DNA of 64,000 bases from Polaribacter sp. BAL334. GTDB taxonomy: Bacteria; Bacteroidota; Bacteroidia; Flavobacteriales; Flavobacteriaceae. The position numbers and the translations under genes were made by a program. The notes under the pieces were generated by a model. That model searched no databases, was not told the origin of the DNA, and worked only from the letters and a program-made list of their open reading frames with translations. Where the stretch lies: contig NZ_JADWOV010000319.1 in the NCBI RefSeq assembly GCF_015767435.1, forward strand, positions 186,001 to 250,000. Reading direction: 5' to 3'. Positions within the stretch are counted from its first letter, which is position 1, and the number at the start of each line of letters is the position of its first letter. This document shows positions 52,744-57,640 of this stretch, in pieces.

Positions 52744-54135
52744 GTGAATACAAAATATAAAGATTTAATAGACCAAACATTCGTTTTTCCACAAGAAGAA
52801 TTTAAAACCGAAAACAATAAATTATTTTGGCATGACATCAATTTGATGGAATTGATTGAGCAATATGGCTCTCCATTAAAATTTACCTATTTGCCAAAAA
52901 TCTCTGAAAACATCAACAAAGCCAAAGATTGGTTCCAGCAAAGTATGAAAAAACACAAGTACAAAGGCAAGTATTTTTACAGCTATTGTACAAAAAGTTC
53001 GCACTTTAAATATGTGTTGGATGAAGCATTGAAAAATGACATTCATATAGAAACTTCTTCTGCTTTTGATATTGATATTGTTAAAAATTTAAAGAAAGAA
53101 GGCAAAATCACCAATAAGAATTTTGTGATTTGCAATGGCTTTAAAAGAGATCAATATATTTCGAACATTGCTGATTTGATTAATTCTGGTCACAAAAATT
53201 GCATTCCGATTATTGACAATTATGAGGAGTTGACTTTGTTGCAAGAAAAAATAAATAGGAAATTCAAAGTTGGGATTAGAATAGCCTCTGAAGAGGAACC
53301 AAAGTTTGAGTTTTATACCTCAAGATTGGGAATTGGATATAAAAACATCGTGTCTTTTTATGAGCGTGAAATTGCTGAAGACGAGCAAGTTGAACTTAAA
53401 ATGTTGCATTTTTTCATCAATACTGGCATCAAAGACAATGCGTATTATTGGAATGAATTGGTGAAATGTATCTCTGTGTATATCAGCTTAAAAAAAGTGT
53501 GTCCTACATTGGATAGTTTGAATATTGGAGGTGGATTTCCTATTAAAAACTCTTTGGCATTCGAGTTTGATTATCAATATATGATTGATGAAATTATTTA
53601 TCAAATCAATGAATCTTGTAAAAATGCAGAAGTAGATGTTCCTCATATTTTTACAGAATTTGGAAGTTTTACAGTAGGTGAGGCTAGTGGTGCCATTTAT
53701 GAAGTTTTGTATCAAAAAAAGCAAAATGACAGAGAGCGTTGGAATATGATCAACTCATCATTTATCACGACATTACCAGATTCTTGGGCCATCAACAAAC
53801 GATTTATCATGTTGCCCATCAACAAATGGAATTTTAAATATGAGCGTGTTTTATTAGGTGGATTGACCTGTGATAGTGATGATTATTACAATTCAGAACA
53901 ACATATAAATGCCATATATTTGCCTATTTATGAAAAAGATAGACCTTTGTATATTGGATTTTTCAACACAGGAGCTTATCAAGAAACGATAGGAGGTTAT
54001 GGTGGATTGCAACATTGTTTGATTCCACATCCAAAACATATTTTGATTGATAAAGATGAAGAAGGTAATTTTGTGACTAAAGTATTTAAAGAAGAACAAA
54101 AAAGCAATGAATTATTATCGATTTTAGGATATTAA
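52744..54135 (+). CDS. speA: Arginine decarboxylase (short, PLP-dependent, alanine-racemase fold)
   Basis: 463 residues, shorter than the E. coli-type SpeA. It converts arginine to agmatine with PLP. The PLP Lys is probably K84 in YSYCTKSSH; the domain also shows IETSSAFDIDIV, NIGGGFPIK (phosphate loop) and EFGSFTVGEASG. The start is GTG. It is the first gene of a polyamine cluster with three genes in the same direction behind it, and its leader may carry an RNA structure. Confidence 0.93.
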   Translation: MNTKYKDLIDQTFVFPQEEFKTENNKLFWHDINLMELIEQYGSPLKFTYLPKISENINKAKDWFQQSMKKHKYKGKYFYSYCTKSSHFKYVLDEALKNDIHIETSSAFDIDIVKNLKKEGKITNKNFVICNGFKRDQYISNIADLINSGHKNCIPIIDNYEELTLLQEKINRKFKVGIRIASEEEPKFEFYTSRLGIGYKNIVSFYEREIAEDEQVELKMLHFFINTGIKDNAYYWNELVKCISVYISLKKVCPTLDSLNIGGGFPIKNSLAFEFDYQYMIDEIIYQINESCKNAEVDVPHIFTEFGSFTVGEASGAIYEVLYQKKQNDRERWNMINSSFITTLPDSWAINKRFIMLPINKWNFKYERVLLGGLTCDSDDYYNSEQHINAIYLPIYEKDRPLYIGFFNTGAYQETIGGYGGLQHCLIPHPKHILIDKDEEGNFVTKVFKEEQKSNELLSILGY

Positions 54136-54183: not shown

Positions 54184-55119
54184 ATGAAAACATACGCAGG
54201 AATTCCTGAAAACTATGCAACATTAAGCAATTCAAAGATTGTGTTGATTCCTGTTCCTTATGAAGGGACAAACAGATGGCAAAAAGGTGCAAGCAAAGGG
54301 CCACAAGCTTTTTTAGAAGCCTCTGAAAACATGGAATTGTATGATATAGAAACCGATTCTGAGGTTTACAAAGAGGGTGTTTTTTTAGCAGACCCAATTA
54401 CTGAAAATGCTTCTCCACAAGCCATGGTAAACGCGGTGCATCAAACCGTTAAAAAATTCATCAACAGAAACAAGTTTGTGACCGTTTTTGGAGGCGAACA
54501 TGCTGTTTCTATTGGAACAGTGAAAGCATTCAATGATTGTTTTCAAAGTTTGACAGTGTTGCATTTTGATGCACATGCCAACTTGAGAAAAGAATTTGAA
54601 GGCTCTCCGTATCATCACAAATGTGCGATGTACGAAGCAAATCAAAACACTAATTTGGTTCAAGTGGGTATCAGAAGTATGGATATTTCTGAAAAAAGAA
54701 CCATGAATCCTGACAAAGTGTTTTTTGCTCATGACATGGCTGTGAATGAATATTGGATGGACGATGTGATTGATCAATTGACAAGCAATGTGTTTATTTC
54801 TTTTGATTTTTCTGCTTTTGATGCATCACTTTTTTCTGCAACAGGAAATCCAGTTTCTGGTGGATTGTTTTACTACGAAACCATGGAATTCTTAAAAAGA
54901 GTTTTTGCTGAGAAAAATGTGGTAGGATTTGACATGGCTGAATTTTGCCCAAATCCAAATCAAAAAAGTTCAGATTCATTGGCTGCAAAATTGTATTATA
55001 AAATGTTGAGTTACAAATTCTCTTCAAAAGATGATACTTATGACACTGATGATTCAAACTCAAATAACAATCCTTTTAGCAAGTTGTCTAAATTTAAAAA
55101 CGACGAAGAGGAATTCTAA
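54184..55119 (+). CDS. speB: Agmatinase-like ureohydrolase with altered metal site
   Basis: 311 residues of the arginase/agmatinase fold plus an acidic Ser/Asn-rich tail. Expected Mn ligands: H106 (GGEH), D129 and H131 (DAHAN) and D208 are present. The fifth, normally Asp in DAHxD, is N133, and the sixth, normally Asp in DxDxxDP, is S210 (FDFSAFDAS). Active agmatinases would release urea and putrescine. With two of six ligands changed the protein may be inactive, regulatory, or use another chemistry. Position after speA still ties it to agmatine. Confidence 0.85.
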   Translation: MKTYAGIPENYATLSNSKIVLIPVPYEGTNRWQKGASKGPQAFLEASENMELYDIETDSEVYKEGVFLADPITENASPQAMVNAVHQTVKKFINRNKFVTVFGGEHAVSIGTVKAFNDCFQSLTVLHFDAHANLRKEFEGSPYHHKCAMYEANQNTNLVQVGIRSMDISEKRTMNPDKVFFAHDMAVNEYWMDDVIDQLTSNVFISFDFSAFDASLFSATGNPVSGGLFYYETMEFLKRVFAEKNVVGFDMAEFCPNPNQKSSDSLAAKLYYKMLSYKFSSKDDTYDTDDSNSNNNPFSKLSKFKNDEEEF

Positions 55120-55128
55120 TCCAATTGG

Positions 55129-56655
55129 ATGATAAAAAATATCGAGAATATCGAATTAAAGTACCTGACAATAAATGATTATCAGGAATTGAAACAAGCA
55201 ATGATTGAGGTGTATGCAAACATGCAAAACATCTATTGGGAAGAATCTCAAATTCAATCATTGATTACCAAATTCCCTGAAGGTCAGATTGTTATAAAAA
55301 TAAATGGTCAATTAGCAGGTTGTGCGTTATCTATCATTGTAGATTACAACACCTTTGACGATCATCATACCTACAAAGAAATCACTGGAAATTATTCGTT
55401 CAATACGCACAATAGCCATGGAGATGTTTTGTATGGAATCGATATTTTTATCAAACCAGAATACAGAGGATTGCGTTTGGGAAGACGTTTGTATGATTAC
55501 AGAAAAGAATTGTGCGAACAACTCAATCTTAGAGGCATTGCTTTTGGAGGACGAATTCCGAATTATCATAAATTCGCTTCCGAAATTTCGCCCAAAGAAT
55601 ACATTGAAAAAGTAAAGCGAAAAGAAATTCACGATCCTGTATTGAACTTTCAAATTTCCAATGATTTTCATCCCTCAAAAGTGATGAAAGGCTATTTGCA
55701 AGGTGATAAAGATTCCAATGAATACGCAGTTTTACTGGAATGGGACAACGTGTATTATGTGAAACAAAACACCAAAGCTGCAACCAAAAAAAGAGTGGTG
55801 CGTTTGGGATTGATTCAGTGGCAAATGCGTTTGTACAAAGGTTTGGAAGGATTGATGGAACAAGCAGAATATTTTGTGGATTCCGTTTCTGCATACAGAT
55901 CCGATTTTGCCTTGTTTCCTGAATTTTTCAATGCGCCTTTGATGGCTGATAATAACCATCTTCCAGAATCAGAAGCGATTAGAGAATTGGCAAAATACAC
56001 ACCAGTTATTGTTAAGAAATTTTCGGAATTAGCGATTTCCTATAACATCAATATCATTACTGGAAGCATGCCAGAAGTGAAAGATGGTTTGCTGTATAAT
56101 GTAGGATATTTGTGCAAACGCGATGGAAACATTGAACGCTATGAAAAATTGCACGTAACTCCAGATGAAGCAAAAGTATGGGGAATGCAAGGAGGAACTG
56201 AATTGCGAACTTATGATACTGACTGTGGGAAAATAGGAATTTTGATTTGTTATGACTCTGAATTTCCTGAATTGAGCAGAATTTTGGCAGATGAAGGCAT
56301 GGATATTTTATTCATTCCTTTTTTGACAGATACCCAAAATGGCTATTCAAGAGTGCGTCATTGTGCCCAAGCAAGAGCCATTGAAAACGAATGTTATGTG
56401 GCGATTGCAGGAAGTGTTGGGAATTTACCAAAAGTAAATAACATGGATATTCAGTATGCACAATCCATGGTTTTTACGCCTTGCGATTTTTCATTTCCAG
56501 CCAATGGCATCAAAGCAGAATCAACAACCAATACTGAAATGATTTTAATAGCAGACGTAGATTTAGATTTGCTGAAAGATTTGAATCAATTTGGAAGTGT
56601 ACGAAACTTAAAAGACAGAAGAAAAGACATTTTTGAAGTGCGAAAACTTCGATAA
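55129..56655 (+). CDS. GNAT acetyltransferase / carbon-nitrogen hydrolase fusion
   Basis: 508 residues. Residues about 1-205 are a GNAT domain (IFIKPEYRGLRLGRRLYDYR acetyl-CoA loop). Residues about 220-508 are a nitrilase-superfamily domain with the full Glu-Lys-Cys triad E265 (FPEFF), K340 (YEKLH) and C374 (ICYDSEFPE). The fusion is known in bacteria; substrates are not established. Its place between an agmatinase-like and a DHS-like gene suggests acetylation and amide or carbamoyl hydrolysis of polyamine intermediates. It begins 9 bases after the previous gene. Confidence 0.92.
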   Translation: MIKNIENIELKYLTINDYQELKQAMIEVYANMQNIYWEESQIQSLITKFPEGQIVIKINGQLAGCALSIIVDYNTFDDHHTYKEITGNYSFNTHNSHGDVLYGIDIFIKPEYRGLRLGRRLYDYRKELCEQLNLRGIAFGGRIPNYHKFASEISPKEYIEKVKRKEIHDPVLNFQISNDFHPSKVMKGYLQGDKDSNEYAVLLEWDNVYYVKQNTKAATKKRVVRLGLIQWQMRLYKGLEGLMEQAEYFVDSVSAYRSDFALFPEFFNAPLMADNNHLPESEAIRELAKYTPVIVKKFSELAISYNINIITGSMPEVKDGLLYNVGYLCKRDGNIERYEKLHVTPDEAKVWGMQGGTELRTYDTDCGKIGILICYDSEFPELSRILADEGMDILFIPFLTDTQNGYSRVRHCAQARAIENECYVAIAGSVGNLPKVNNMDIQYAQSMVFTPCDFSFPANGIKAESTTNTEMILIADVDLDLLKDLNQFGSVRNLKDRRKDIFEVRKLR

Positions 56656-56671: not shown

Positions 56672-57640
56672 ATGAATAAACCAATCACCAATTTTATAGA
56701 AAAATACTTTTTACATTTCAATGCAGCAGCTTTAGTAGATGCCGCAAAAGGATATGAAAAGCAGTTGAATGATGGCTCTAAAATGTTAGTTTCATTAGCA
56801 GGAGCCATGAGTACAGCAGAATTAGGGAAAATTTTTGCCGAAATAATTCGTCAAGACAAAGTGCAAATTATTTCGTGTACAGGTGCCAATTTAGAAGAAG
56901 ATGTGATGAATTTAGTTGCACATTCACATTACAAACGCGTACCAAATTACCGTGATTTAACACCACAAGATGAATGGGATTTGCTAGAAAAAGGCTTAAA
57001 CAGAGTTACTGATACCTGTATTCCTGAAGAAGAAGCTTTCAGACGTTTGCAAAAACACATTGTGAAAATTTGGAAAGATGCAGAAGCAAATGGAGAACGT
57101 TATTTTCCGCACGAATTTATGTACAAACTATTGCTTTCCGGAGTTTTAGAGCAATATTATGAAATAGACATCAAAAATTCTTGGATGTATGCAGCTGCTG
57201 AAAAAAACTTACCAATGGTCGTTCCAGGTTGGGAAGATTCAACCATGGGAAATATTTTTGCGTCCTATGTTTTGAAAGGCGAAATCAAAGCAAGTACTAT
57301 GAAATCAGGTATTGAATACATGACATTTTTGGCTGATTGGTATACTCAAAATTCTGAAAACGGCATAGGATTTTTCCAAATAGGAGGAGGAATTGCTGGC
57401 GATTTCCCAATTTGTGTGGTACCAATGTTATACCAAGATATGGAAAGAACAGATACGCCTTTTTGGAGTTATTTCTGTCAGATTTCTGATTCAACCACCA
57501 GTTATGGTTCGTATTCAGGAGCGGTTCCTAACGAAAAAATCACTTGGGGAAAATTAGATATTCATACGCCAAAATTCATCATAGAAAGTGATGCAACCAT
57601 TGTTGCGCCATTGATTTTCGCGTATTTATTAGAGATGTAA
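56672..57640 (+). CDS. Deoxyhypusine synthase-family protein
   Basis: 322 residues. The DHS fold is clear from CTGANLEEDVMNLV, PGWEDSTMGN and the C-terminal SYGSYSGAVPNEKITWGKL. The catalytic Lys of the W-G-K motif is kept (K294), as is E288. The two Asp of human DHS that hold spermidine (D313, D316) are Y278 and Y281, and the K-H-H after the Gly-Gly-Gly is absent. Bacteria have no eIF5A, so the acceptor must differ, perhaps putrescine or another amine. The ATG at 56672 is preferred over an upstream TTG inside the previous gene. Confidence 0.88.
   Translation: MNKPITNFIEKYFLHFNAAALVDAAKGYEKQLNDGSKMLVSLAGAMSTAELGKIFAEIIRQDKVQIISCTGANLEEDVMNLVAHSHYKRVPNYRDLTPQDEWDLLEKGLNRVTDTCIPEEEAFRRLQKHIVKIWKDAEANGERYFPHEFMYKLLLSGVLEQYYEIDIKNSWMYAAAEKNLPMVVPGWEDSTMGNIFASYVLKGEIKASTMKSGIEYMTFLADWYTQNSENGIGFFQIGGGIAGDFPICVVPMLYQDMERTDTPFWSYFCQISDSTTSYGSYSGAVPNEKITWGKLDIHTPKFIIESDATIVAPLIFAYLLEM

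Follow-up and report, generated by a model that had tools for sequence, protein, structure and literature searches.

The E. coli agmatinase SpeB has six metal ligands (H126, D149, H151, D153, D230, D232), the guanidinium group is contacted by H163, T244 and E274, and D153 is in addition a member of an Asp/Glu proton-transfer pair (PMC8049259). The protein analyzed here shares with SpeB the fold, four of the six ligands and the equivalents of H163 and E274. It differs in that the equivalents of D153, D232 and T244 are Asn, Ser and Asn and in that it carries an acidic C-terminal tail.

Arginase-fold proteins without metal are already known. The arginase-like protein (ARG) of T. brucei, reportedly described by Hai in 2015, is said to lack the Mn cluster. 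It is likewise a metal-free arginase fold with an unassigned role, and we know of no tie between this protein and a replacement route. It is, however, eukaryotic, whereas the bacterial loss recurs and tracks the gene aguA. In metformin hydrolase the metal-free MetCb supports its active sister MetCa, and the functions of metal-free arginase-family proteins are called elusive in the same source (PMC11271267). MetCb is also an arginase-fold protein which has lost its metal ligands and has yet been kept. It is encoded beside its active sister subunit, whereas judging by motifs read by eye none was found in the genome studied here. Dead proteins of polyamine metabolism are further known from trypanosomes, namely a dead paralogue that activates deoxyhypusine synthase (PMC3663545) and the AdoMetDC prozyme, reportedly likewise a dead paralogue (PMC5201418). 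These proteins, too, are kept for a non-catalytic role. They are, however, paralogues of the enzyme which they activate, whereas here the sole agmatinase was converted and no active agmatinase paralogue was found in the genome. In Shewanella an agmatinase coexists with AguA routes (PMC12283126).

Results

The window, that is the whole analyzed stretch of 64,000 nucleotides, belongs to contig G000:C245 of a genome (G000) whose nearest named genomes are Polaribacter and Tenacibaculum. A gene cluster on the plus strand is led by an open reading frame for a SpeA-like arginine decarboxylase (52744–54135, 463 aa; PF02784 above cut-off, the NCBIfam speA models below theirs). Then follow the agmatinase-family gene (54184–55119, 311 codons without interruption), a fusion of a GNAT and a carbon-nitrogen hydrolase (nitrilase) domain (55129–56655, 508 aa; PF00583 and PF00795) and the gene for a deoxyhypusine-synthase-like (DHS-like) protein, probably a homospermidine synthase (56672–57640; PF01916, 145 bits). 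The start of the latter is an ATG picked within an open reading frame that begins at 56633. The sequence-only reading had described the polyamine cluster as otherwise intact. This holds for the SpeA and DHS-like neighbors within the blocks compared: four blocks of SpeA are near-identical across 13 sequences, with only Ser/Cys and Phe/Tyr swaps, and all 15 sequences compared have the WGK block of the DHS-like protein. For five relatives (L127, L130, L131, L132, L136) the stretches of about 7 kb showed no GNAT-nitrilase fusion, and in L133 and L135 it is inverted and located beyond the DHS-like gene. Thus, its place in the cluster is labile.

By sequence and by fold the product of 54184–55119 is a member of the agmatinase family. 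It scores above cut-off with both PF00491 (178 bits) and TIGR01230 (188.7 bits, cut-off 174.3). The model predicted from 68 aligned sequences has an arginase fold with a mean pLDDT of 89.2. It resembles 3pzl (Z 36.6, rmsd 1.9, 276 residues) and the E. coli SpeB structures 7lol and 7lba (Z 33.6–33.8, rmsd 2.2–2.3, 270–272 residues; for 7lol Z 33.6, rmsd 2.2, 272 residues). Chains of metformin hydrolase also rank among the nearest folds, with Z about 35–36.

The active-site residues were assigned from the spacing of the motifs and from an alignment with 7lol. The equivalents of the SpeB ligands are H106, D129, H131, N133, D208 and S210 (HDHNDS instead of H, D, H, D, D, D), and those of the guanidinium contacts are H145, N222 and E253. 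This mapping confirms what had been read from the letters alone, namely that H106, D129, H131 and D208 are retained and that N133 and S210 replace ligand aspartates. Given the equivalence to SpeB D153 and D232, one ligand is lost in each Asp motif. The codons are AAC for Asn133 (54580–54582) and TCT for Ser210 (54811–54813); both positions are Asp in the 202 intact orthologues. A third active-site loss had been overlooked: the T244 equivalent, which is Thr in intact orthologues, is Asn222 (AAT, 54847–54849), with H145 and E253 being kept. Since two of six metal ligands are replaced in a protein with the family fold, the latter taken from the predicted model, we refer to it as a pseudo-agmatinase.

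All six ligands are present in 202 of 223 distinct orthologues, and each of these 202 also has H145 and E253. The remaining 21, here called degenerate, come from a clade of six genomes including the window genome (six proteins) and from other genomes with aguA (15 proteins). All 21 reading frames are full length (308–314 aa). When 11 degenerate proteins were tested, 8 of them, among these the window protein, exceeded the agmatinase equivalog cut-off.

N133, S210 and N222 are common to all six genomes of the clade (G000, G074, G152, G153, G006, G109). In our first set of orthologues position 133 is Asp in 70 distinct sequences and Asn is confined to this clade. A sequencing error is ruled out because the six genomes carry the identical three changes and one of them, G074, consists of a single contig. 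The sequence-only reading had proposed to look for a clade with both N133 and S210, and such a clade exists. We take the shared changes to be inherited from a common ancestor; the divergence of the clade then postdates the ligand loss. In 15 pairwise comparisons (Nei-Gojobori) the agmatinase-family gene has a median dN/dS of 0.048 (0.021–0.075) at a median dS of 0.74. For the same genomes we obtained 0.030 for speA, 0.041 for the fusion (five genomes), 0.020 for the DHS-like gene, 0.076 for aguA and 0.041 for aguB. Codon 210 cycles between TCT, TCA and TCG and codon 133 between AAC and AAT, and the residues stay Ser and Asn. The low dN/dS and the synonymous turnover indicate that the gene was kept by selection after the loss, and the former contradicts the plain decay that had been considered at the outset. 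It was also considered whether the frame is held open merely for the translation of the downstream gene. This is ruled out, as an open frame alone would not hold the amino acids at a dN/dS of 0.05.

Agmatine deiminase (PF04371) was found in 14 of 166 genus-level genomes. Nine of the matches are strong (E < 1e-100), and all six clade genomes are among these nine. G000 has an overlapping aguB-aguA pair on the minus strand of another contig (L114, 7342–8229 and 6314–7345). The best models for AguA and AguB are agmatine deiminase and N-carbamoylputrescine amidase, with both scores below the NCBIfam cut-offs. Our search for aguB covered the nine genus-level genomes with strong aguA, and in all of them, the six of the clade as well as G072, G075 and G151, it adjoins aguA. 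G072, G075 and G151 have aguBA and an intact agmatinase. If the genes act as their families do, agmatine can become putrescine without agmatinase, and this gene pair outside the window would explain why the agmatinase chemistry became dispensable.

No second agmatinase was found in G000. The single other PF00491 match is a protein of 386 aa encoded outside the window (L002, 1369–2529, plus strand, G000:C225), downstream of an open reading frame which by eye resembles topoisomerase I. In its motifs GGGQD, DSRFD and IDIGAVKQSD, read by eye, several metal ligands seem to be missing. Thus, there appears to be no active cognate subunit in G000. Weak matches recur in the group with frames of 386–405 aa. 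The protein in G000 is possibly an older arginase-fold pseudoenzyme.

The survey of the family covered 395 genomes, and a PF04371 match with E < 1e-100 was counted as strong aguA. Any PF04371 match is present in 128 of the 395 genomes, strong aguA in 55 besides G000. Forty of these 55 have an orthologue of the agmatinase-family gene. All 40 were read; 25 are intact and 15, from eight genus codes, are degenerate. An orthologue is also present in 244 genomes without strong aguA (285 less 41), some of which, for example G407 and G410, have weaker PF04371 matches. From these 244 we fetched 110 sequences, namely 80 of 103 low-scoring ones picked by eye and 30 higher-scoring ones; one duplicate and one frame-broken sequence were dropped, leaving 108 distinct sequences. 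Degenerate orthologues make up 15 of 40 in the aguA-positive genomes versus 0 of 108 in the genomes without strong aguA. Fisher's test gives p 2.8e-10 for 15/40 versus 0/109 (duplicate counted) but treats the genomes as independent, which they are not. The set also includes, without individual aguA typing, 66 intact sequences drawn from named genomes and from the genus and the order. Matches below 42% identity were left out, and three broken sequences (L020, L138, L258) were excluded. The presence of aguA is not sufficient for the loss: 28 of the 49 orthologues from strong-aguA genomes (40 from the family and 9 from the genus) are intact.

In G168 (L138/L020) the agmatinase gene has several stops, the neighboring DHS-like match is in two pieces and the genome has no PF04371 match. 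This broken gene is ordinary decay or an assembly error, unlike the window clade. In G242 (L258), a single-contig genome without strong aguA, the agmatinase match lies in two frames.

The distribution of the degenerate proteins requires a minimum of 4 state changes on the agmatinase tree (85 rows, active-site columns removed) and of 6 on the SpeA tree (88 rows), two trees with weak support for many of the deep branches and no inferred root. Taking aguA to be present in 41 of the 285 genomes with an agmatinase, we arrive at a rough probability of about 4e-4 to 9e-6 that 4 to 6 losses would all hit genomes of this kind. Asn133 together with Ser210 is found in three groups (the window clade, g115 and g136). 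In other groups the ligand sites are occupied by Gly, His, Ser, Cys or Asn, with one Arg at H106, and the lowest retention is two of six ligands (HGHHSS). In the genus g57 the genome G413 has lost the ligand D133 as well as H145 and E253, and two sisters, which likewise have aguA, are intact. Between G413 and these sisters dN/dS is 0.074–0.079, compared with 0.018 from sister to sister. The other degenerate groups have values of 0.04–0.10, intact ones mostly 0.015–0.07 with one distant pair at 0.089. All five degenerate groups with at least two members have a dN/dS of at most 0.10; in g137, where the residues differ, the ligands may in part have changed only after the split. The constraint is thus somewhat relaxed.

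Much of the remaining protein is conserved. Of 103 positions with at least 97% conservation in intact proteins, 54 are retained in at least 95% of the degenerate proteins. Counted over the nine groups, D133 and T222 are changed in 9, H145 and P214 in 7 and D210 in 6. In five of the nine groups canonical motif sites (fixed list) are changed more than other conserved sites (p < 0.05). The window clade has no such excess, with 4/17 motif sites versus 9/86 other conserved sites changed (p 0.22). The C-terminal segment LAAKLYYKMLSYKF (residues 266–279, 54979–55020, plus strand) has a mean consensus match of 0.925 in degenerate and 0.958 in intact proteins. The acidic C-terminal tail (residues 282–311, 55027–55116, plus strand) ends with SKLSKFKNDEEEF and is predicted to be disordered, as pLDDT is below 50 over 282–311. 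Its Lys303-Phe304 is present in 21 of 21 degenerate proteins and its Asp307 in 20. Searched with a loose pattern, the tail is found in 24/28 intact proteins from aguA-positive genomes and in 112/174 other intact proteins. It is therefore ruled out as a hallmark of the pseudoenzyme, since most intact proteins possess it. Some intact agmatinases (L139-L288 and relatives) are without the acidic Lys-Phe tail and have 0–22 residues after position 277, versus 30–37 elsewhere.

The orthologue is equally frequent in genomes with strong aguA (41/56) and in the others (244/339). In the 15 of 55 aguA-positive family genomes that have no orthologue, speA and the DHS-like gene are always present (15/15) as adjacent genes separated by roughly 30 to 205 bases. 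Within the genus 59 genomes are without the gene. Thirty-seven of them are at least 90% complete; none of these 37 has speA or the DHS-like gene (E 1e-20), and four have weaker PF04371 matches. Thus, within what was searched, the cluster without a working agmatinase occurs only with aguA. Some lineages can do without the protein, and in others it is under selection.

Discussion

We consider it probable that the window gene is a former SpeB-type agmatinase, now a metal-free pseudoenzyme which was kept after aguBA had taken over the chemistry and which probably binds to another protein. The conversion would have happened in place, without duplication. We suggest the following course of events. 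With the gain of aguBA, agmatine would be converted via N-carbamoylputrescine to putrescine, replacing the agmatinase chemistry. The metal site would then be free to be lost. Exchange of Asp for Asn, Ser, Gly, His or Cys could let the fold stand without metal; where a residue lacking negative charge replaces the aspartate, the loss of clustered negative charge would stabilise the metal-free fold. Several lineages would keep the protein for a second, non-catalytic job. This is most likely the binding of a partner via the surface and the acidic Lys-Phe tail, and the protein could for example be a structural or regulatory subunit of polyamine enzymes. The job would be helpful and not essential, because the 15 other aguA-positive genomes have the neighbors but not the gene. 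Overall, we read the degenerate groups as proteins which have lost the chemistry, are under some relaxation and retain a surface-based role.

Alternatively, the pocket of the window clade could have been rebuilt for another reaction using one metal or none. In its favor, all six species carry the altered residues without exception, and four ligands as well as H145 and E253 persist; within the clade 5/31 pocket sites vary, no more than the 30/175 body sites, although this comparison carries little weight because the pocket list was picked in hindsight. Against such an enzyme, which we regard as improbable, speak the other groups. They lose other ligands and some of them H145 and E253 as well, and except for N133/S210 in three groups the ligand sites have not converged on a shared set of new residues. 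Moreover, the neighboring genes hint at no new substrate. The initial reading had left the choice between decay, new chemistry and a regulatory role. As the ligand losses differ by lineage and the catalytic His is gone in 7 of 9 groups, retention for a non-catalytic role fits better than new chemistry.

Asparagine is able to ligate metal ions. Asn and Ser might therefore hold the metal loosely, so that a weak agmatinase activity stays under selection, and the 8 of 11 equivalog hits would be in line with it. We hold this to be unlikely, since other groups are down to two of six ligands and the loss is observed only alongside strong aguA. In addition, both the ligand and proton-transfer partner D153 and the guanidinium contact T244 of SpeB (PMC8049259) are lost.

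The gene could also be slowly decaying and on its way out, the end state being the 15 of 55 aguA-positive family genomes in which both neighbors are present and the gene is missing. The somewhat higher dN/dS in the degenerate groups would agree with this. We think it quite unlikely, because dN/dS does not exceed 0.10 in any of the five multi-member groups (in g137 part of the change is perhaps later), not one of the 21 frames is shortened and the altered codons turn over synonymously. Finally, the protein could be an inactive prop for an active arginase-family subunit, like the metal-free ureohydrolase partner MetCb (PMC11271267), and metformin hydrolase chains are indeed among the nearest folds. 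This is very improbable, since the one other PF00491 match of G000 also appears to lack ligands (GGGQD, DSRFD, IDIGAV).

The favored reading remains a pseudoenzyme that is kept for a non-catalytic role. In a literature search with subscription papers and preprints outside its range, we found no report of an agmatinase ligand loss tied to aguA or of repeated in-place conversion tied to a rival route. Metal-free arginase-fold proteins as such are known; the present case differs in the repeated conversion in place of a sole agmatinase in step with a rival route. There is also a consequence for annotation. Because 8 of the 11 degenerate proteins tested pass the NCBI agmatinase equivalog cut-off, such genomes would be credited with an agmatinase which probably fails, and their putrescine is likely to come from aguBA.

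More tentatively, and stopping somewhat short of an even chance, we propose that flavobacterial agmatinases have a built-in second function which is non-catalytic, resides in the surface and the acidic Lys-Phe tail and is masked by the chemistry. This function alone would keep the protein where aguBA takes the chemistry, and the degenerate lineages would be repeated natural separation-of-function mutants. With several natural conversions, at the fewest 4 or 6 depending on the tree, and with intact sister species as controls, the function of metal-free arginase-family proteins becomes directly testable.
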